Below are positions 5,346 to 43,528 of a DNA stretch of 64,000 nt, in pieces. This stretch comes from Polyangiaceae bacterium (GTDB taxonomy: Bacteria > Myxococcota_A > Polyangia > Polyangiales > Polyangiaceae). Every line of letters begins with the position of its first letter. The first letter of the stretch is position 1. The notes under the pieces are model-generated. The model did no database searches and had not been told where the DNA came from. It saw only the letters and a program-made list of their open reading frames with translations. The translations under genes were made by a program, and so were the position numbers. The stretch covers positions 1-64,000 of the forward strand of contig JABSRN010000057.1 of assembly GCA_013214025.1 (NCBI GenBank). The letters run 5' to 3'.

Positions 5346-6221
5346 CTATTCCAAGGGGGCTGAATCCTCCCCCAGCACGACGTTGTCAATCAGGCGCGTT
5401 TTGCCCATGAACGCGGCTACCGCCAATAACGCGCGATCTGGCAATACTTCGCCCTCCGGAAACGCGGTGAGCCGATCGGGGTGTGCTACGCTGACGTAGT
5501 CTTGGCGCATACCAGCATTCTGCAGTTCCGCGCGTAACAATCCGACTAGAACGTCTTGCCGACGTTCCCCTGTCTCGAAGCTTCGCACGGCGGCTGACAA
5601 TCCTCGGGCAATGCCGAGGGCTCGCGTTCGCTCGTCAGCGCTAAGATAACGATTTCTTGAGCTCAGTGCCATGCCATCCGCCTCGCGAACTATGGCGAAG
5701 CCGACGACGCGAACAGCCAACAAGAGATCTGCCACCATGCGTTCGATGACTTTGAGTTGTTGGTAATCTTTGCGGCCAAAGATTGCTGTGCACGGACCGG
5801 CAATCGCTAACAACTTGGTCACGATAGTGGTCACGCCTTCGAAGTGCTCCGGGCGCGAGGCACCGCAAAGTCCTTCGGTGATCCCGGCGACGGCTACTCG
5901 GGTCGATTCCCCCTCAACATACATCTCGCCCTCTGCCGGGGCGAAGACGAGCGCGACCTTTTCGTCCTCGCAAGCCGCGACGTCGGTCTCGAGCTGCCGG
6001 GGATAGGCACTGAGATCCTCGCCCGGCGCAAACTGAGTAGGGTTCACGAATATCGTCACGGCCACAGTGGAGCCGTGATTGTGTGCTTCTTTCATTAGCG
6101 CACAGTGTCCGGCATGCAGCGCCCCCATGGTCGGGACTAAGGCCAGCGTGCCACCATCGCGACGGGCGTCATCACAACGGCGGCGAAACTCCTCAACGGA
6201 GCGGCAGACGATCGCCGGCAT
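5346..6221 (-). CDS. panC: Pantothenate synthetase
   Basis: Joins D-pantoate and beta-alanine using ATP, the last step of pantothenate synthesis. At 291 residues it is full length. The HIGH-like nucleotide-binding motif is PTMGALHAGH (residues 30-39). Later family segments are visible: NPTQFAPGEDLSAYPR, the pantoate-site region EGLCGASRPEHFEGVTTIVTKL, FGRKDYQQL and MALSSRNRYLS (the KMSKS-equivalent). Its ATG overlaps the panB stop by one base (TGATG), which implies translational coupling. tmk follows 27 bp downstream. Confidence 0.96.
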   Translation of the reverse strand: MPAIVCRSVEEFRRRCDDARRDGGTLALVPTMGALHAGHCALMKEAHNHGSTVAVTIFVNPTQFAPGEDLSAYPRQLETDVAACEDEKVALVFAPAEGEMYVEGESTRVAVAGITEGLCGASRPEHFEGVTTIVTKLLAIAGPCTAIFGRKDYQQLKVIERMVADLLLAVRVVGFAIVREADGMALSSRNRYLSADERTRALGIARGLSAAVRSFETGERRQDVLVGLLRAELQNAGMRQDYVSVAHPDRLTAFPEGEVLPDRALLAVAAFMGKTRLIDNVVLGEDSAPLE

Positions 6222-7156
6222 CAGTCGTCCGAGGCCGGGCCGTAGGTGGGGACCTCGGGATCCACCACCGCTTGAGCACCCGTGGCCTCACCCAAACTTT
6301 TTGGTTTGGCCATACCAAAAGACTGACTCGCATCGGGAAAACTGCCGCCCTGTACTTCGGCTACGTAACTCTGGGTCGCCTTCACGATTTCATCACCCAG
6401 TTCAGCGAAGCGCTTGACGAACTTGGGAGTAAAATCTCGAAACATGCCGAGAAAATCGTAACAGACCAATACTTGACCATCACAATGGGGTCCGGCGCCG
6501 ATGCCAATGGTGGGAATGTCGACCGTCTCGGTGATGCGCCGGCCGAGATCCGCCGGTACCCCCTCAAGCACCACGCAGTAGGCGCCAGCCTCCTGCAGCA
6601 CTTTTGCGTCCTGCAGCACTTTCGCGGCGGCGTCTTCGCCTTTCCCTTGGACCCGAAAGCCCCCCATCGCATGCACCGACTGGGGGGTGAGCCCAACGTG
6701 GCCCACCACCGGGATGCCCGCCGCGACAATGCGCGCGACGTGTTCGCAAACGGCGACGCCACCCTCCAACTTCACCGCCTCGGCTCCCGATTCTTTCACC
6801 AATCGGCCGGCAGCTTTGAGGGCTTCTTCGCTTGAGATCTGGAAGCTCATGAACGGCATGTCCGCCACCACCTGCGCGCGTTGGGTCCCGCGGACTACCG
6901 CGCGTGTGTGGTAAATGATGTCTTCTAGGGTAACCGGCAACGTCGTCGCCAAGCCCTGCACCACCATGCCCAGAGAATCGCCAACGAGCAGCATGTCCGC
7001 GCCCCCCTCGTCGAGCAGACGGGCAATCGTCGCATCGTAGGCCGTCAGCATCGCGATCTTCGATTTCCCCTTGCGGGCTCGAATCATCGGAACGGTGACC
7101 TTCGCTGGCTTCGCCGATTTGGCGGGTGTTTTGCCTTTGCTGGAGGAAGAACTCAT
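6221..7156 (-). CDS. panB: 3-methyl-2-oxobutanoate hydroxymethyltransferase
   Basis: First committed step of pantothenate synthesis: transfers a hydroxymethyl group from methylene-THF to 2-oxoisovalerate. 311 residues with family signatures MLTAYDATIARLLDEGGADMLLVGDSLGMV, ADMPFMSF, VKLEGG, GIPVVGHVGLTPQS and GIGAGPHCDGQVLV. About 22 N-terminal residues are Ser/Lys/Ala-rich and precede the conserved start of the barrel. The repeated KVLQDAKVLQEA segment comes from an 18-bp near-duplication, but the overall length is normal for the family. It is first in the panB-panC-tmk unit. Confidence 0.96.
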   Translation of the reverse strand: MSSSSSKGKTPAKSAKPAKVTVPMIRARKGKSKIAMLTAYDATIARLLDEGGADMLLVGDSLGMVVQGLATTLPVTLEDIIYHTRAVVRGTQRAQVVADMPFMSFQISSEEALKAAGRLVKESGAEAVKLEGGVAVCEHVARIVAAGIPVVGHVGLTPQSVHAMGGFRVQGKGEDAAAKVLQDAKVLQEAGAYCVVLEGVPADLGRRITETVDIPTIGIGAGPHCDGQVLVCYDFLGMFRDFTPKFVKRFAELGDEIVKATQSYVAEVQGGSFPDASQSFGMAKPKSLGEATGAQAVVDPEVPTYGPASDD

Positions 7157-32348: not shown

Positions 32349-35300
32349 CTACTGCGGTGTGCCGAGACTGATGGTGACCCGCAGGCGCTCGCGAATGGTC
32401 AGATACTGGTGACTGACCGAGTAGCGCAGCAGCTCTTGGCGACGTTCGGTTGGACTCAGCGAGTTCGCGTCATCTCCGGCCTCGCGAATGACGGCCAGGG
32501 CCGATTGTAAATCGCCGCACACCAACAGGCCGGCACGGTCCGCGGTGAGATCGATTCCGTTCACCCAACGATCGAGATCGATCATGGCCCCACGCTTGAG
32601 CAGCACGTTTACCGGTCGAGCCAGCTGATCTCGGTCTTGGGCGGAGAGATGAGTCCGCAGGGCTTCAAGAGCTTCGACTATGGGGCCTTCTAGCCCCGGC
32701 GGTACGGGCAACGTCGGAGCGATGAACTTCGTCGCCGCCAAGACCCACGCCTTACGAGCGTCGGTCGACGCCAATAGGTAGCGGGAGAATGAGCCCCCGT
32801 TGAGGTAGCTCAGATGCGAACCAGCAACGAAGGAGGCTCGAAAGCTAAGGGTACCGGGGGAAAGCCCGGCCGCCCCCAATACGATGGCCGGAGGGCGACC
32901 CTTAATAAGACTGAGCCCGCCTGGGCTGTCGGGGTTCCGAAACATTCGTGGCAAGTTCATGCCGAGCGTGGCCGCCCCGAGCGTGAGCGCTTTCACAAGA
33001 ACTCCATCATGCTCCGTCTGAATTTCGCGTTCGTCCGTATGCCCCAGCTTTCGGAGGCTCTTGCTGTGCGACGCCAGCAGAGCCGGAAGTGTGAGGGCGA
33101 AAATTTCCGAGACCTGGGGATCTGCATCCGGGTGAGTGATGAGCTCTGACCAATCCTGACGGGGCAGCCGTGCCGTAGTCTGGGTCGACGAAAGCTCCCG
33201 ATGGCGCTTGAAGAACAGCTCCTCTTCAGGATCCGCACGACCGATCACGGTCAAGGCTTGGCATACACACCAGGTAGCGTCCGCATGATCGACCTGAGCA
33301 TAAATCCGACGCAGGTCGCGGTAGGCCTCGGGTCGATACGGGTCGTCCGCTAGCACGGCTTCCTGAGCAGATACTGCCTGGGACAAGTACCGAACCGGAT
33401 CGGAAGCGTACAATTCCGCCAACAGGGCGCGCCGTGTATCATCGCTAGGATCGAGCGCGAGGGCCTGTTCGTTTACGTCGATGGCGCGGTCAACGCGAAG
33501 GTTGCTCACCATCAAGTCGCCGAGATCGTCCAAACATTGAAGCGCCCGCGCGGAGTCTCCACGCTCCAGCGCGAGCTCCGCCTGACTCTCGTATAGTTGT
33601 TCCAGAGCGTCGTCGTCTCCGAGTTCCTTGTGCAATTTGACCGCTTCCCGCAGAGCCTTCTCGAGCGTCGGATCCGCCGCCAAGGACATGTTGAGCAATT
33701 CCATTGCCCGTTGCTTGTCCCCCAGCTCCCGACTCGCCAGTTGGGATGCCACGTGCAGATAGCTGGCCTGCTGACGATGATCGTCTACCACGTCGACCAG
33801 CTCCAGAATTACTGCCAGCAGCTCCTTCCAGTCTTTGCTCTGGCCATAGAGTTCCATCAACCGGACTAGGACCTCTCGTTCTCCGGGGCGCTCCGCCAAT
33901 GCAGACAGGTAATATTTTGTGGCGGTGCTCAACTGGGACACGCCGGCACTCAGTTCGGCCATTTCAATCCACAAATCGAACTTCTTTTCTGGCGCCAAGC
34001 GCCCCAGCAGGCGCTCCACTACCGGCTCAAGTTCCTCCGGGCGGTTCCGTGCGGCATAGAGACGCGCCAAACTCAATAGCGGCTCAACAGACTCGGGATT
34101 CATATCCGCGGCTTCTCGCAACGATGGCGTTGCCAGGGCCAGCTTGCCCGCTCGACGGGTAGCCTCGCCAAGGATGTACAATGCCTGGGCCTTTTGGGGC
34201 CGAGACATCTTGCCGGCAAAACGCGAGATGAAGCTCCGAGTGACGGACATGATGCGCTCAGGAACGGAACGCTCAAAGGTCAGAAGAACCGTCTGATATT
34301 GTGACTCGATGTTGTCAGCCGATAGCTCGATGAGCTCATCCAACACACGTTCGCTCGCCTCCGCGTTGCCGGAAGCCGCCAGAGCTTCCGCTTGTCGCGC
34401 CAACACCTGCAGCAGCTCCTCTTCGCCCAAGGCTTCGCGGTGTTGGAGAACATTGTTGAAGTGCTCGGCGGCCTCTTTGAAGTTTTCCTTCTCGAAGCTC
34501 AGATCGGCGACTAATCGGTGCGCTCGGGGGTTCCCCTCATCCAAATTCAGAGCACGCCTCGCGCTTCGAATCGCCTGTTCGGGATCCTTCAGATCCATCA
34601 CCCAAATCTCGGCTATCTGGGTCCACAAGATCGCGGAAGCGCGGCCGCCGCTCTCACACTCAAGCGCTTGCTCGTAGATGCGAACCGCTGCAGCGGGCTC
34701 GCCGGAAGCTCGTTCCGCCGCGGCAAAGGCCTCCAGGGTGCTGACCTCGCCCGGACGCTTCTCAAGTGCCAACTTATACCGTTTAACGGCTTGCCCCCAA
34801 TTGCCCTGCTCCTCCAGCAAAGCCGCTGCTCGCAAATGATGAGATGCCGCCGTCTGAGGGTCGTCCGCCTGTACCGCGAGTTTATCAATGGCGTCCAGCG
34901 CCGCCTCAGCATCTCCCGTTGCCTGGGTCAGCTCTGCGATGAAATTTAGCGTTTGGGCGTGATCAGGTACGAGCTTCGCTATCGCCGCCGCGACTTCGAG
35001 CGCCGCCTCGGGATATTGCAAATCATCGCGGTAGAGCTCCGCCAAGGAGAACAACAACGCCACTCGCGGTTCTGTGCCCTCCGCCCGATCGGCCCGCAAT
35101 TGTCGAATGCGCGCCAACTTCTGTGGCTGCGCTAGTTCCTTGTAGTGACCGTCCAACTCTGTGAGCGCTTCGTCGTTGGCGGGATCAATTTCCAGCACTC
35201 GCTCCCAAGTTTCGCTGGCCAGTTCGCGATTCAAGAACTCCTTGGAATGAATCCAAGCAATCCGACCCAGCACGGCCACGGTTTGCTGAGGAGTTACGGA

Positions 35301-37613
35301 TAACACCAATTGGCGTTCTAGATTGACCAGGAGATCCACGTGGAGCGCTTCGGACATGTACAGGCCTTCGAGACCCCGCAACGCGTCCAGATGGTTCGGT
35401 ACATCCATGAGCAATCCGGCGTAGCGGTTCATGGCGGCTTCCGCGTCCAAATGTTGTTCTTCGTACTCCGCCAGCCTTAGGAACAGCGCGACTCGTTTCT
35501 CGCCCTTGAGGCCCAAAAGATGTCGCTCCATCAAGTCGATCACGCCCGCGTAGTCTCGTCGCCCTTCTAACAAGCTGCGCAAGCCTTCGTAGGCGGGAAA
35601 ATGACCGGGGTCCTCGCGTAGCACCCGCTCGTAGAGGTCGACGGCGATCTGCTCTTCGCCGAGCCGACTGGCACTGAGCCGGGCGGCTTCCGCCCGAAGA
35701 TCGCGAGCGTCGCTCGGGTACACCGAGTACTTCGCGCGGGACATCAGCGTGCTGCAAAGATCCCGCCACTGACCGGCCTCCCGATAGATGCCCGCTAGCA
35801 TCGCTAAGGCGTTGTCATTGCCGGCTTCCTCAAAGAGCACCGACTGAAAACACTGGACGGCCAAATCAGGCCGGTGAACTCGTTCTAGATAGATCGATCC
35901 CATCTGAGCGAGCAGTGCGTTCTTGCGCTCCGTGCTTTGCTCTCCCTCCAGTGCGGTCACGCAGTATCCCAGCACCTCCGCCCAGGTTTCATCGTGCCGG
36001 CCGGCAACACGACTGATCTCTTGCAAGTGCGCAGGCTCAAGCGGGTCCTCGCAAAGCGCGGACGCGAACGCGATCAGCGCCTGCGTGTCATCCTCTAGTT
36101 CGTCCCGGAGAAGCACGCCCAGACGCGCAAAGGCTCGGCCCCGCTCCTCGGAGCGTGTCGCTTCTTGACCTCGCTCGACCAACATTTCGATGGCTCGGGT
36201 ATGATCCCCGAGGCTCCGACAACTCCGGATAAGGGCCGCTTGCACGGCTTCGTCGCTCGGTTCGAGCAACATCAGTTTCTCGAAGCACTGGCGCGCGTCG
36301 TCATGACGCTCCGCCCGTTCAAATAGGCTCGCTGCATGCATTAGCAGCCGAGACTGGTCTGCTTGCCCGCCGTCGTTGCCGTCCAACTCTCCCGCAGCGC
36401 GGGAAAAGGCGGCAGCGACTCGCCCCGGATCTGCGCCTTGATCGATACCCGATTCCAACACGCCGGCTGCAACCGGATCTTCCGGATTGCGCATGAGAGC
36501 CGCCACGCGGTTTTCAAATTCCGAATCAGGGAAGATACTTCCCCTCCGTACAGACATCGACACCAGGCTCTCCATCACGTCCAACAGAGCGTCGCCGTCC
36601 GCAGGTCGACCCGCTGGCTCCTTATCGAGCATCTCCAGAACAAATTCGTCCAAGTCTGCGTCGATGGGGGCCCCTCTGGCCGCAAAGCTCAAGGGCTCAG
36701 GATCTGTCGCCGCATGCTCCACCCAACTGGGGCGCTGGGCATCCGACTTGAACATCGGACGCCCGGACACCAGCTCGTAGAGCAAGGTCCCGAAAGCGTA
36801 AACGTCGCTCCGCGATGTGGGCAACTGGCCATGCAGCTGCTCTGGCGCCCCCACGGAGCCCCGCCCTGAGCCCAAGGCCGCTGTAGTCAGAAAATGGGAA
36901 CCGGCGCCCACCACTTTCAGCTCTCCCTCTGGCGAATACCAAAGCATCTCGGCCGACAAGGCGCCGTGGCACAATTTTGCCTCGTGCAAGGCGCACAAAA
37001 CCTCCAGCAGGGGCTCCAGCGTCTTCCAGGAATCTCGCAAGCGCAGCGGCGAAGTGTCAGAAATCTCTTGGGTGCCGTTCTCGCCGGCGAAGGCTTCGTA
37101 GGCGACCACCGCGTGGTCTCCGAACCAACCAACGGCACTCAAGGTCGGCAGGTGTTTGTGACTCACTCGCCCCACCGCCCGCACCGTCGCGAAATAGCGT
37201 TCCACACCCGACCGCCGCGCACTCACGTCCGAGCGTAGAACCTGCAGCGAGACAGCCTCTCCGTCCCTCTCGGCTTCGAACCAAGTGCTCCAGGCATCCA
37301 CCCCACGCCGTCGCCCCAGTTCATAGGGGCCGAGTTCCGCTCCGGACCGGAGCTCGGCGGTCACGAATCCACTGACTCGTACCGCCTGTAAGGGCTCCCG
37401 CAGCGCGGGCCTCGCCGCCACGGCGATATCGCAGAGTGCCTCAATGGATTGGGTCGATACGCAGTGCTCAACCAGCGCGCTAACGAGAGAGGCCTTGGCA
37501 TCCCCCGCCGGAAGGTCGGAGGCGTCCACGCCCAGCCCGTCTTGAGCTAGCTTCTCCAGCTCCGAGAGTGAAAATTGGCGTTCCAGTTCCGCTGTCAGCA
37601 AGGCGATCGGCAT
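32349..37613 (-). CDS. Giant pseudokinase-TPR protein with N-terminal helical domain
   Basis: 1754 residues, no signal peptide. Residues 1-70 form a compact helical module (LERQFSLSELEKLAQDGLGVDASDLP, then LVSALVEHC) that resembles small death-like effector-associated domains; this is an inference. Residues about 75-350 have the outline of a Ser/Thr kinase (GPYELGRRRGVDAWSTWFEA, then DVYAFGTLLYELVSGRPMF) but lack the VAIK lysine (VSLQVL), the catalytic Asp (HGALSAEMLW, near residue 215) and DFG (VVGAGSH), so it is a pseudokinase. From residue 370 to about 1500 there are some 25-30 helical pairs of TPR type. The last 250 residues are a separate domain. It is divergent from a VWA lipoprotein. 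Confidence 0.85.
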   Translation of the reverse strand: MPIALLTAELERQFSLSELEKLAQDGLGVDASDLPAGDAKASLVSALVEHCVSTQSIEALCDIAVAARPALREPLQAVRVSGFVTAELRSGAELGPYELGRRRGVDAWSTWFEAERDGEAVSLQVLRSDVSARRSGVERYFATVRAVGRVSHKHLPTLSAVGWFGDHAVVAYEAFAGENGTQEISDTSPLRLRDSWKTLEPLLEVLCALHEAKLCHGALSAEMLWYSPEGELKVVGAGSHFLTTAALGSGRGSVGAPEQLHGQLPTSRSDVYAFGTLLYELVSGRPMFKSDAQRPSWVEHAATDPEPLSFAARGAPIDADLDEFVLEMLDKEPAGRPADGDALLDVMESLVSMSVRRGSIFPDSEFENRVAALMRNPEDPVAAGVLESGIDQGADPGRVAAAFSRAAGELDGNDGGQADQSRLLMHAASLFERAERHDDARQCFEKLMLLEPSDEAVQAALIRSCRSLGDHTRAIEMLVERGQEATRSEERGRAFARLGVLLRDELEDDTQALIAFASALCEDPLEPAHLQEISRVAGRHDETWAEVLGYCVTALEGEQSTERKNALLAQMGSIYLERVHRPDLAVQCFQSVLFEEAGNDNALAMLAGIYREAGQWRDLCSTLMSRAKYSVYPSDARDLRAEAARLSASRLGEEQIAVDLYERVLREDPGHFPAYEGLRSLLEGRRDYAGVIDLMERHLLGLKGEKRVALFLRLAEYEEQHLDAEAAMNRYAGLLMDVPNHLDALRGLEGLYMSEALHVDLLVNLERQLVLSVTPQQTVAVLGRIAWIHSKEFLNRELASETWERVLEIDPANDEALTELDGHYKELAQPQKLARIRQLRADRAEGTEPRVALLFSLAELYRDDLQYPEAALEVAAAIAKLVPDHAQTLNFIAELTQATGDAEAALDAIDKLAVQADDPQTAASHHLRAAALLEEQGNWGQAVKRYKLALEKRPGEVSTLEAFAAAERASGEPAAAVRIYEQALECESGGRASAILWTQIAEIWVMDLKDPEQAIRSARRALNLDEGNPRAHRLVADLSFEKENFKEAAEHFNNVLQHREALGEEELLQVLARQAEALAASGNAEASERVLDELIELSADNIESQYQTVLLTFERSVPERIMSVTRSFISRFAGKMSRPQKAQALYILGEATRRAGKLALATPSLREAADMNPESVEPLLSLARLYAARNRPEELEPVVERLLGRLAPEKKFDLWIEMAELSAGVSQLSTATKYYLSALAERPGEREVLVRLMELYGQSKDWKELLAVILELVDVVDDHRQQASYLHVASQLASRELGDKQRAMELLNMSLAADPTLEKALREAVKLHKELGDDDALEQLYESQAELALERGDSARALQCLDDLGDLMVSNLRVDRAIDVNEQALALDPSDDTRRALLAELYASDPVRYLSQAVSAQEAVLADDPYRPEAYRDLRRIYAQVDHADATWCVCQALTVIGRADPEEELFFKRHRELSSTQTTARLPRQDWSELITHPDADPQVSEIFALTLPALLASHSKSLRKLGHTDEREIQTEHDGVLVKALTLGAATLGMNLPRMFRNPDSPGGLSLIKGRPPAIVLGAAGLSPGTLSFRASFVAGSHLSYLNGGSFSRYLLASTDARKAWVLAATKFIAPTLPVPPGLEGPIVEALEALRTHLSAQDRDQLARPVNVLLKRGAMIDLDRWVNGIDLTADRAGLLVCGDLQSALAVIREAGDDANSLSPTERRQELLRYSVSHQYLTIRERLRVTISLGTPQ

Positions 37614-39886: not shown

Positions 39887-40858
39887 TCAGCTCATTGCCG
39901 CATCGTCGAGGCGGCGCGACTCCAAATAGAAATCGTAACAGTGGTCGCGGTTCTCATCATCCCCACGCTGGCGCATGGCAGCGCGCGGGTGTTGATTCAA
40001 GTAACCGGAGATGCCGTAGATGTCATTGAAGCCCCATTCGATCGTTTCTCGGAGAGGAACCATCTGCTCCTGAATGACCTTGTAGATGGGTCGCACATCG
40101 AACTTGGGGTTCTTGAGAAAGTTCAGCAGCAGCTCGAGATTGCAGTTGCCTGCACCGCGACCGATCCCGTTCACCGTTGCGTCCAATAGATTGACGCCAT
40201 CGATGATGGCCTGCTGCGTATTGGAGAACGCGAGCTGCTGGTTATTGTGCCCGTGAAAGCCCAACGGTTTGTTGGGCGCGTACTTCTTGTAGAGCTCCAC
40301 GTAGGAAGTGACTTGCTCAGAATAGAAGGCGCCGTAGCTGTCCACCAAATAGAGATAATCCAGCTGCGCCACTTCGTTGGTTTCCTCAAGGCCTTCTGCC
40401 AAATCGCGCTCGATAGCGGCCGAAGGAGCCATGATGTTCAAGGTGGTCTCGTACCCGAGCTCCTTGCAGGTCTTCACGACATCGATGCCCTTGTTGATGT
40501 CGGCCACATAGGAAGCCACACGGATCATGTCGAACGGAGTTTGGTCGATGGGCTTGAGCGCCTTGAGATCGATTCTGCCGATGTCAAACATCACGGCGAT
40601 CTTGGGTCGGTGCTCGCATTCATGGGAGTCGATGACTTCGCGAATCACGTCGTCGTCGCAAAAGTTCCACACGCCCCATTTGTCTCGGGGGTAGCTATCA
40701 CTGTCCGCCAGCTTCTTGCCGATCTCGAAATAATCCACCCCGGAGTCACACGCGGCGGCGTACACGGCCTTCACAAAGGTCTCGCTGAACTGATAATTGT
40801 TGATCAGCCCACCGTCGCGGATGGTGCAATCTAGGACCTTGATTTCTTTGCGATACAT
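39887..40858 (-). CDS. DRE-TIM metallolyase / HMGL-like aldolase
   Basis: 323 residues. The opening VLDCTIRDGGLINNYQF has the DxTxRDGG motif of 4-hydroxy-2-oxovalerate aldolase and related DRE-TIM enzymes, where the Asp and Arg bind metal and substrate. Later blocks are LDYLYLVDSYGAFY (barrel strand), LGFHGHNNQQLAFSN (the HxH metal ligands) and DATVNGIGRGAGNCNLELLL. No acetaldehyde dehydrogenase gene accompanies it, so meta-cleavage degradation is unlikely. A role in making a specialised oxo acid is possible; the substrate is unknown. Confidence 0.8.
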   Translation of the reverse strand: MYRKEIKVLDCTIRDGGLINNYQFSETFVKAVYAAACDSGVDYFEIGKKLADSDSYPRDKWGVWNFCDDDVIREVIDSHECEHRPKIAVMFDIGRIDLKALKPIDQTPFDMIRVASYVADINKGIDVVKTCKELGYETTLNIMAPSAAIERDLAEGLEETNEVAQLDYLYLVDSYGAFYSEQVTSYVELYKKYAPNKPLGFHGHNNQQLAFSNTQQAIIDGVNLLDATVNGIGRGAGNCNLELLLNFLKNPKFDVRPIYKVIQEQMVPLRETIEWGFNDIYGISGYLNQHPRAAMRQRGDDENRDHCYDFYLESRRLDDAAMS

Positions 40859-40997
40859 TTACTAATTCCTACGACTTTCGCCCCCACTGGCTGCGATGGG
40901 CGAGCATGCTACAGCACCTCAAGCTTGCCAAGCCCAAGAGCCGGACTCCGCTGCCGCCCGCCATAGATAAGGCCGCGGGGCCAGAACCCGTTGAATT

Positions 40998-42341
40998 TTA
41001 CGGTGTCCGCGGTAGGGACGGAATCTTTCCCTCTGCCAGGCTGGAGCGCGCCGCGTCGAGGCGTTGGGTCATTTCTTCCGGTAGCAGCTCCAGCGCGTCC
41101 GCGGCTGTCAGCGCGGCGCGGTAACGCTTCTCCGCTTCCGCCGGATCCACCTGAGAAAGGGAGTCGGCCTGCTTCAGCAGCCGGCTGACCGCCAGCCAGT
41201 CTGGGGCTTGGCTCAGCTGAGCTGCCGGAGCTGTAGCGGGCACCTTGGCGGGAGTCGCGACGACGCCTTCCTTGCCCGTCGAATCTACCTGTGGCTCCGC
41301 GGGTCGGGTCGATGGGACTGGACTGATCTGTAATGTGGACTCCACTAGGTAGAGCCCCAGCAGTGCGAGCGCCATCCCGACGGCTGCGAGAATCGGCAGA
41401 GCTCGGGATACAGCGGGGGCGGCGGCAATCGAGTGCTCCAAATTGGGAATCGAGCTAAAACCATCGCTCACAGCCCGGGCCCGAGGCGACGCAGGCACGG
41501 TCTCCAACTGGTTGATCACCGCTGTGGTCGGCGCCGATCGCGATGCCTCATCAATCGCCAATGGACGAGCCGGCACCGTCGACAATTGGGCGAGCATAGA
41601 GACATCGCTCTTGTTCTCGCTCGCGCTCACTGCCCAGCCACAATGGGAAGCCGGAACATTGAAGACAGCGACATGCTCCATGGATTCGTCTGCAATGCGG
41701 CGCTCCAAGTAATCGCTTAGGTCGCCCAGCATGACCTGCCTTTTTCCAGCGACGTCCGCACCACCACCGAAGGCGTCCAGCAATGCTCGACCCAACAGGG
41801 AGTGGCGTGGGCGCAGAGCCTCTGGGAAATCCGCTCCGATTTCGATCTCGCGCCACACACCCAGCAGGCTGACGTCGGCAGTTTTCGCATAGTCCGCCAA
41901 CTGACGCCGTAACTCTCTCGGCTCCGCGCCATCCAGACGGGTCGCACAGAGATCCGCCACTAACAGCGAGCGTGGGCACGTGCAATCGCCGAGAATCTCG
42001 AACAGTTTCTCGGCGCTCATGCTGTTGCGCGGCAGCTCGGAAGCTGTCGCGTCCGCACCCGGGAGGTACAAGTCACCGTCGGCGTCCGGCATCACTTGGC
42101 CACTAAAGAAAATTAGACGAAGATCGTCCCGCGAGGAATCGCCCCCAAACTCCAAGAGAGCTCCGCGCAGCTCCTGGTCGCTTGGATCCAACAGCTCGCG
42201 TACGTCCGCAAATCCGCCAATTTGTGGCGCTCGTAGGCACGACGCTAGCTCACGAGCATCGCTATGGGACGTTCCGAGATTGTCGATCCGCTCGTCTTTA
42301 TAGTGCGCAGTACCAATGACTAGGGCGACACGCCTTCCCAT
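40998..42341 (-). CDS. Membrane-anchored caspase-fold protein lacking the catalytic His
   Basis: 447 residues. Residues 1-235 have a caspase (C14) fold: RVALVIGTAHYKDERIDNLGTSHSDARELAS opens as in metacaspases. The catalytic-His strand reads LRLIFFSGQVMPDADGDLYLPG with Gln82 where the family has SGHG. The second strand reads LLVADLCATRL, keeping Cys132. With His gone, proteolysis is unlikely. A Ser/Pro-rich linker, one membrane helix (LPILAAVGMALALLGLYLVE, near residues 305-325) and a helical C-terminal tail follow. The ATG has TTGAGG eight bases upstream. Confidence 0.85.
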   Translation of the reverse strand: MGRRVALVIGTAHYKDERIDNLGTSHSDARELASCLRAPQIGGFADVRELLDPSDQELRGALLEFGGDSSRDDLRLIFFSGQVMPDADGDLYLPGADATASELPRNSMSAEKLFEILGDCTCPRSLLVADLCATRLDGAEPRELRRQLADYAKTADVSLLGVWREIEIGADFPEALRPRHSLLGRALLDAFGGGADVAGKRQVMLGDLSDYLERRIADESMEHVAVFNVPASHCGWAVSASENKSDVSMLAQLSTVPARPLAIDEASRSAPTTAVINQLETVPASPRARAVSDGFSSIPNLEHSIAAAPAVSRALPILAAVGMALALLGLYLVESTLQISPVPSTRPAEPQVDSTGKEGVVATPAKVPATAPAAQLSQAPDWLAVSRLLKQADSLSQVDPAEAEKRYRAALTAADALELLPEEMTQRLDAARSSLAEGKIPSLPRTP

Positions 42342-42670
42342 CGACAGACCTCAAGTTCCCCCTCAAGTTCATTGTTTCCATGATTACCAAAAACCTAAGA
42401 ATCGATGTTCACACGTTCACTAAATAAAATCGAGACAATGGTCTTCTGATCCGGCGCTTCGTTAACTAGTGCTCCGCAGGACCTGTGCTGGGCGCGCACC
42501 ACGATCCGAAGCACGGCAAAGCCGCGCAGCTCTCAGCCGCGCAGCTCTCAGCCGCGCAGCCTCGTGCCGATCAGTACAGCGGTCCGAACGCCGACGTCGT
42601 CGGCCCCGAGGCCCGAAGCTGAGCTTGGGACCGCAGAGCCTGCTGACAGTTTCCCGCCGCTCAGGGAGCT
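42342..42670. other. Intergenic region upstream of caspase-fold gene
   Basis: 329 bases. The part nearest the caspase-fold gene (42360-42450) is notably AT-rich and probably holds its promoter, though no clear -35/-10 pair could be assigned. The remainder is GC-rich, includes the 15-bp tandem repeat at 42520-42563, and shows no gene. Confidence 0.55.
42520..42563. repeat. 15-bp tandem repeat, about three copies
   Basis: AGCCGCGCAGCTCTC occurs at 42520-42534 and 42535-42549, followed by a third partial copy. It lies downstream of folD and upstream of the caspase-fold gene. Confidence 0.9.
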
Positions 42671-43528
42671 CTATCGGTTCTCTTCACGAGCGGTGGCCGC
42701 CCGCAAGGTGTTGTTCAAGAGCATCGCGATAGTCATGGGGCCGACCCCGCCCGGAACCGGGGTGATGACCCCCACCGTGGATTCGACGTCGGCGAAATCC
42801 ACATCTCCGCAGAGCTTGCCGTTTTCGTCCCGATTCATGCCAACGTCGATCACTGCAGCCCCGGGTTTTACATACTCGCGGCTCACCATCTTCGCGCGGC
42901 CCACCGCTGCGACGAGCACATCAGCCTCTCGACAAACTGCTGCCAGATCTTTGGTGCGCGAATGAGCAATGGTCACCGTCGCGTTGTTGGCAAGCAGCAG
43001 ACTGGCCATGGGTTTTCCGACAATGTTGCTGCGTCCCAACACCACCGCTCGAGCGCCCTCTAGCGCGACCCCCCCCTCCTGGAGTAGTCGGATGCAACCA
43101 CTCGGAGTACAAGGCACAAGCGCACTGCCACCCGACCACAGTCCGCCCACGTTCACCGCGTGAAAGCCGTCCACGTCTTTGGCGGGATCGACAGCCTCAA
43201 GGATGGGGGCCGAGGGCACACCATCAGGCACCGGCAACTGCACAAGGATTCCGTCTACAGAGTCGTCGGCGTTCAATTTTCGAACTAGGGCAAGTAGCTC
43301 TTCGCCGCTAACCGAGGACAGAAGCCGATGAACGTGTCCGTCAATGCCAGCGGCAGCGGCGGCCTTCTCTTTGTTGCGAACGTAAACGGCCGAAGCGGGA
43401 TCTTCCCCCGCCAAAACCACGTGCAAGCCAGGCGCACGGCCGTACTTGGCTCGAAATACGTCGACCCCTTCTTTGACTTCCTCACGGACCTTGAGTGCGA
43501 TCGCCTTGCCGTCCAAAACCTGTGCCAT
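42671..43528 (-). CDS. folD: Methylenetetrahydrofolate dehydrogenase/cyclohydrolase
   Basis: Bifunctional enzyme converting methylene-THF to formyl-THF through methenyl-THF. 285 residues from ATG 43528, which has GGAAGAG upstream; the open frame continues for 63 codons further but is not conserved-looking. Family blocks: DPASAVYVRNKEKAAAAAGI (catalytic Lys in KEKAA), GILVQLPVPDG, DVDGFHAVN, PCTPSGCIRLL, GRSNIVGKPMASLL (NADP-binding), VIDVGMN and TPVPGGVGPMTIAML. It follows lgt by about 100 bp on the same strand. Confidence 0.95.
   Translation of the reverse strand: MAQVLDGKAIALKVREEVKEGVDVFRAKYGRAPGLHVVLAGEDPASAVYVRNKEKAAAAAGIDGHVHRLLSSVSGEELLALVRKLNADDSVDGILVQLPVPDGVPSAPILEAVDPAKDVDGFHAVNVGGLWSGGSALVPCTPSGCIRLLQEGGVALEGARAVVLGRSNIVGKPMASLLLANNATVTIAHSRTKDLAAVCREADVLVAAVGRAKMVSREYVKPGAAVIDVGMNRDENGKLCGDVDFADVESTVGVITPVPGGVGPMTIAMLLNNTLRAATAREENR

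Follow-up and report, generated by a model that had tools for sequence, protein, structure and literature searches.

Pseudo-orthocaspases, bacterial caspase homologs without a working catalytic dyad, are already in print (PMC6426788), as are membrane-bound or inactive caspases of conflict systems (PMC7159879). According to the portions of PMC6426788 consulted, 858 of 9,994 bacterial orthocaspases lack an intact dyad, with Gln-Cys one of the common replacements in Rhizobiales; both pocket Asp residues are highly conserved in the pseudo-orthocaspases, and 90% of the published pseudo-forms come from Alphaproteobacteria or Cyanobacteria. The portions of PMC7159879 consulted describe an EACC1-caspase system ("System 4"), in which at least 33% of the caspase proteins carry membrane helices, and VMAP systems, in which ∼70% of the effector-position caspases are inactive; the inactive ones were proposed to be dominant-negative or peptide-binding.

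We analyzed a stretch of 64,000 nucleotides (nt) from a Polyangiaceae bacterium (the window; assembly GCA_013214025.1, contig JABSRN010000057.1, positions 1 to 64,000). A gene on its minus strand encodes a protein, termed here the pseudo-caspase, that belongs to the caspase superfamily by profile and by fold and is without the catalytic His-Cys dyad. An earlier note had described the product as a membrane-anchored caspase homolog that lost the catalytic His, kept Cys132, and carries a helical tail behind a single membrane helix; each of these points was confirmed. The kind of protein is thus known, but this one departs in architecture and lineage from the types described in the consulted portions of PMC6426788 and PMC7159879, and no published description of this combination was found, as judged from brief descriptions. 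The features are as follows:

40998-42341, minus strand: pseudo-caspase gene, an intact open reading frame (ORF) of 447 amino acids (aa) with an ATG start, a Peptidase_C14 match above cut-off and a codon-position guanine plus cytosine (GC) content near that of folD.
42093-42098, minus strand: Gln82-Val83, codons CAA (42096-42098) and GTG, at the positions of the catalytic His and the following Gly.
41946-41948, minus strand: Cys132 (TGT), the caspase nucleophile position, kept; Cys in 98% of 63 homologs.
41640-42341, minus strand: caspase fold, residues 1-234 (p20 and a degenerate p10-like half), from an AlphaFold2 model and its VIA alignment to MALT1.
41343-41399, minus strand: predicted membrane helix, residues 315-333, a single hydrophobic stretch with a Kyte-Doolittle mean of 2.36.
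41034-41198, minus strand: C-terminal three-helix tail, residues 382-436, tetratricopeptide repeat (TPR)-like by eye, with predicted local distance difference test (pLDDT) block means of 90-96.
42349-42352, minus strand: GAGG, a ribosome-binding-site-like motif 7 nt 5′ of the ATG, read from the sequence.

The column of Gln82 is His in all 63 aligned homologs (three duplicate loci dropped), and that of Val83 is Gly in 98% of them. The site aligns without gaps, e.g., "DDLRLIFFSGQVMPDADGDLYL" of the pseudo-caspase vs. "DDLTLLYFTGHGLKDDDGRLYL" of locus L106, so that, at the level of the sequences compared, the loss of His82 is not an alignment artefact. His is also kept at 21 of 21 loci gathered by two further scans, at all 11 additional loci from viral contigs (L133-L143, by eye; L132 repeats L099) and at 85 of 85 loci of another set (80 fetched plus L121-L125). 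These sets overlap slightly (at least L121 with L047, L124 with L052, and L171 with L006) and were picked because their members resemble active-type profiles or the pseudo-caspase itself, and they may under-sample degenerate forms. Loci L022 and L032 were considered as further His-less homologs from pairwise alignment and were rejected, as the profile alignment shows SSHG and STHG, respectively. Dyad losses in which His is kept occur in the same class, with Arg (L181, G474:C1:3478362-3479021) or Ser (L068) at the Cys column. Because the general base and the adjacent Gly are lost, no cleavage by the Cys-His mechanism would be expected, and the pseudo-caspase is very likely inactive by this standard route.

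The fold is complete. Pfam Peptidase_C14 matches residues 3-133 (E = 1.3e-7, 32 bits vs. a cut-off of 21.4), and NCBIfam caspase_w_EACC1 (NF047832) matches residues 5-217 (4e-18, 65.7 bits vs. a cut-off of 140). In a first model the p20 part was confident, with a Foldseek match to MALT1 (E 1.9e-8), the p10 part was poor, and the membrane helix and a confident three-helix tail followed. A model of residues 1-240 built from an improved alignment reached a predicted template modeling score (pTM) of 0.73, and its residues 1-234 aligned by VIA with MALT1 (7ak0_B) with a Z of 21.6 and a root mean square deviation of 2.6 over 196 residues; caspases align as well, and chain B of the caspase-8:c-FLIP entry 3h11, which is either of the two proteins, gave a Z of 18.8. 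The structure prediction that the earlier note had proposed as a check returned a whole caspase fold. The Pfam match stops at residue 133, yet a degenerate p10-like half appears in the model. Homologs split into two fragments to better the p10 alignment were misaligned, and were not used.

The hydrophobic stretch was modelled as a helix at 310-336 with moderate confidence (block means 56-75), and the tail as helices at 382-395, 400-415 and 422-436. The N-terminal domain would be cytoplasmic and the small helical tail periplasmic, with this one membrane helix tethering the former to the latter. No Pfam family matched the tail above cut-off (best E 0.091), and Pfam T2SSF was set aside for the pseudo-caspase (E 0.012, 16 bits, under its 25.2-bit cut-off). 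The Pfam scan of the protein returned no vWA, death-effector or Ig domain and no trypsin match at E ≤ 1; 0 families among the 5027 PADLOC models matched it at E ≤ 1, and PHROGs gave no match.

The 63 homologs show conservation of 70% or more at 30 columns, and the pseudo-caspase retains 20 of them. Nine columns are at least 92% conserved: Gly10, Leu22, Asp28 (95%), Asp130 (95%) and Cys132 are kept, whereas His82 (100%), Gly83, Thr184 (95%) and the post-Cys Gly (92%) are lost, the last in an alignment-dependent way, since MAFFT gives instead a three-residue insertion and then a kept Gly138. Asp28 and Asp130 line up in the alignments with acidic residues of the basic-residue pocket of MALT1; the MALT1 residues opposite them, counted as D365 and D462, we take to be the S1-pocket acids.

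MALT1 is the closest solved fold, and the likeness to it and to c-FLIP, an inactive caspase homolog, lies in the fold; both are animal proteins with death-effector or Ig domains that are unmatched here, and the pseudo-caspase has no known partner. As in the pseudo-orthocaspases of PMC6426788, as far as its consulted portions describe them, a p20 with a substituted dyad (here Gln-Cys) keeps both pocket Asp residues. The published Gln-Cys type, however, has an N-terminal trypsin-like domain, while here the ORF begins at the caspase domain, and the membrane helix and helical tail are features of this protein. With the inactive caspases of VMAP-ternary systems, as outlined in PMC7159879, the pseudo-caspase shares a caspase fold without a working dyad, but those are fused to a vWA component, and no vWA domain was seen here. 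It resembles EACC1-associated caspases, as outlined there, in its N-terminal caspase domain matching NF047832, and its membrane helix is a minority feature among them; it differs in scoring below the cut-off, in its lost His (kept at 21 of 21 loci) and in that no EACC1 gene was found.

The tie to the EACC1-associated family is unspecific, because NF047832 is often matched below its cut-off: of 289 genomes from the class, 208 have a match and 8 exceed the cut-off. The comparison loci L099 and L101 scored 169.5 and 194.5 bits, and the pseudo-caspase shares 29-33% identity with the domains of EACC1-type loci. A second contig scan gave 20 loci (19 from Actinomycetes and one from Ancylobacter, in our grouping), and at 19 of them (all but L120) an ORF of at least 80 codons ends within 10 nt of the caspase start. 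The upstream ORF matched EACC1 in four of the five EACC1-type loci tested (4/4 second-scan loci; the miss is L099). An EACC1 gene was neither matched in the source genome nor found adjoining the pseudo-caspase gene, with a profile that detected only one of four control genomes. The controls were 14 standard genomes, without a match, and four added genomes with NF047832-type caspases, one of which matched; the absence is therefore weak evidence, and partners can be missed.

Locus L099 (2087-9218, IMGVR_UViG_3300045107_000593) carries its EACC1-type caspase at 6001-7095, above the NF047832 cut-off and with an intact dyad; an ORF of 137 aa that matches no Pfam family precedes it. The module lies on the opposite strand between portal-like and terminase-large-subunit-like genes, a phage packaging region.

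The gene looks real and intact, because its codon-position GC (0.69/0.50/0.67) is near that of folD (0.70/0.45/0.66) and GAGG stands 7 nt before the ATG; a kinase gene has a similar codon-position GC. Gene folD, named by eye from the sequence, lies upstream at 329 nt, and an HMGL-like aldolase gene lies on the other side. On the strand of the gene, the gap to folD holds no ORF longer than 39 aa, and no sigma-70-type promoter-like site was found at 40800-42800.

With its own genome included each time, the pseudo-caspase had matches in 4 of 59 genomes (none of the other 58 is of the same genus), in 78 of 377 from the phylum and in 7 of 108 from the family. The two best other matches in the phylum cover residues 3-148 at 34% identity and residues 3-134 at 37%, and no phylum match among those listed extends into the tail. 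With tblastn, phages gave no match and plasmids five records, all below 60% identity; megablast gave none. In a tree of 163 domains, from which domains shorter than 180 aa and three duplicates were left out, the terminal branch of the pseudo-caspase (1.67 vs. a median of 0.34) ranks third, with no close neighbour. Judged from these comparisons, it is an isolated, strongly diverged example of the dead bacterial caspases.

The best explanation, to which we give an even chance, is a pseudo-orthocaspase that would act as a non-cleaving, peptide-binding pseudo-protease at the membrane, in a binding or sensing role. The caspase domain has lost its general base (the His at 82) and the adjacent Gly, and retains the fold, the Cys and the two pocket-aligned acidic columns. 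Such a domain may bind, without cutting, a caspase-type partner or a stretch of protein that contains a basic residue, and might serve as a sensor or a competitor. Regulator or sensor, as the earlier note had suggested, is the likeliest class of function. This explanation is supported by the complete fold, the 20 of 30 conserved columns, and the intact ORF with its ribosome-binding-site-like motif and ordinary codon-position GC. By analogy, pocket acids kept despite the loss of the dyad would follow the pattern of the pseudo-orthocaspases in the consulted portions of PMC6426788, and a binding role would accord with the peptide-binding or dominant-negative proposal outlined in PMC7159879.

Several observations weigh against such a role. 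No ortholog was found among the 59 genomes, the 377 phylum genomes, the 108 family genomes or the second contig scan; there is thus no sign of selection on the kept residues, and decay has to be taken seriously as a rival. Of the ten lost columns, six (78, 106, 191, 200, 201 and 207) lie outside the His-Gly, post-Cys and Thr184 positions, some of these losses are conservative, and general drift would fit equally. The long terminal branch and the unresolved placement in the tree are expected of decay too, the p10-like half was modelled with low confidence (pLDDT < 50 at 161-176), no partner or ligand is known, and His13, 26, 180, 223, 233 and 303 are present as possible substitutes for the lost His.

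In the rival account of decay, which we hold to be appreciably less probable than a binding role, the gene is what is left of a caspase effector (perhaps an EACC1-type one) that lost its partner gene and drifts in frame without function. The lack of an EACC1 match and of a sizeable ORF toward folD, the rank of the terminal branch, the conserved columns lost beyond the active site, and the absence of a caspase near folD at 29 loci of other genomes (up to 1.5 kb each, some ended by contig ends) would all suit it. Against it stand 447 codons without a stop or frameshift, ordinary codon-position GC, a membrane helix and a confidently folded tail, and the Cys and acidic columns were kept while nearby catalytic positions changed; moreover, with an EACC1 profile that found one of four controls, the missing partner says little. 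A sequencing or assembly error masking a normal His-Gly is very improbable: the assembly is split into 184 contigs and no other one was found, but codons 82 and 83 would both need to be wrong, and other conserved positions, e.g., Thr184, are changed too.

That the protein still cleaves, with another residue as the base or with Cys132 alone, is unlikely. The protein retains Cys132 and both acidic columns, His26 precedes Asp28 by two residues, and MALT1, which is active as a protease, has no "SG" directly after its Cys (DMCRKR). However, the Gly after the His, whose backbone helps to form the oxyanion hole in caspases, was lost together with it, and no homolog in the sets of 63, 21, 11 and 85 dispenses with His. 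We consider similarly improbable a regulatory role like that of c-FLIP, in which the protein would bind and control an active caspase of the same genome, as the earlier note had imagined in proposing a search for an active paralog. The fold aligns well with caspase chains, 3h11 chain B included, and the genome has one other C14 match, L007:3947-5700 (C19), that keeps His and Cys in SGHG and DACH. By eye, though, an in-frame stop breaks that gene after the first strand, and its signal-peptide-like start would send the product to another compartment; no match to a CHAT protease was found in the genome (one control genome matched). The search thus turned up no intact candidate partner, and one could be missed in a genome that is 97% complete and spread over 184 contigs. 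Less likely still is an orphan membrane-tethered decoy, in which a former EACC1-type caspase, without its catalytic base but still with its basic-residue pocket, would capture the substrates or partners of phage- or plasmid-borne EACC1-caspase modules and so block them.

The case is rare, since no homolog in the sets examined lacks His. If the pseudo-caspase is functional, it would offer a compact natural test of whether caspase folds can serve purely for binding at a bacterial membrane, a role already proposed for the inactive caspases of bacterial conflict systems; should it instead be decaying, it would show the erosion of a bacterial caspase standing alone. The decoy, if true, would be an immunity-like guard made from the dead copy of a weapon.

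The C14 gene of L007 sits downstream of a sigma-factor-like ORF and of an ORF that is DUF4384-like by eye. In the window, a 1754-aa protein (32349-37613, minus strand) combines an EAD7-like N-terminus (22.2 bits vs. a 32-bit cut-off), a kinase domain and many TPRs, and by eye its kinase domain is without the HRD and DFG motifs (HGALSAEML and VVGAG). The idea that this neighbour and the caspase make up one system was rejected: 11 of 39 genomes, its own included, have EAD7-like matches, only one of these matches is above the cut-off, and 10 of the 11 fall on ORFs of 1754-2067 aa.
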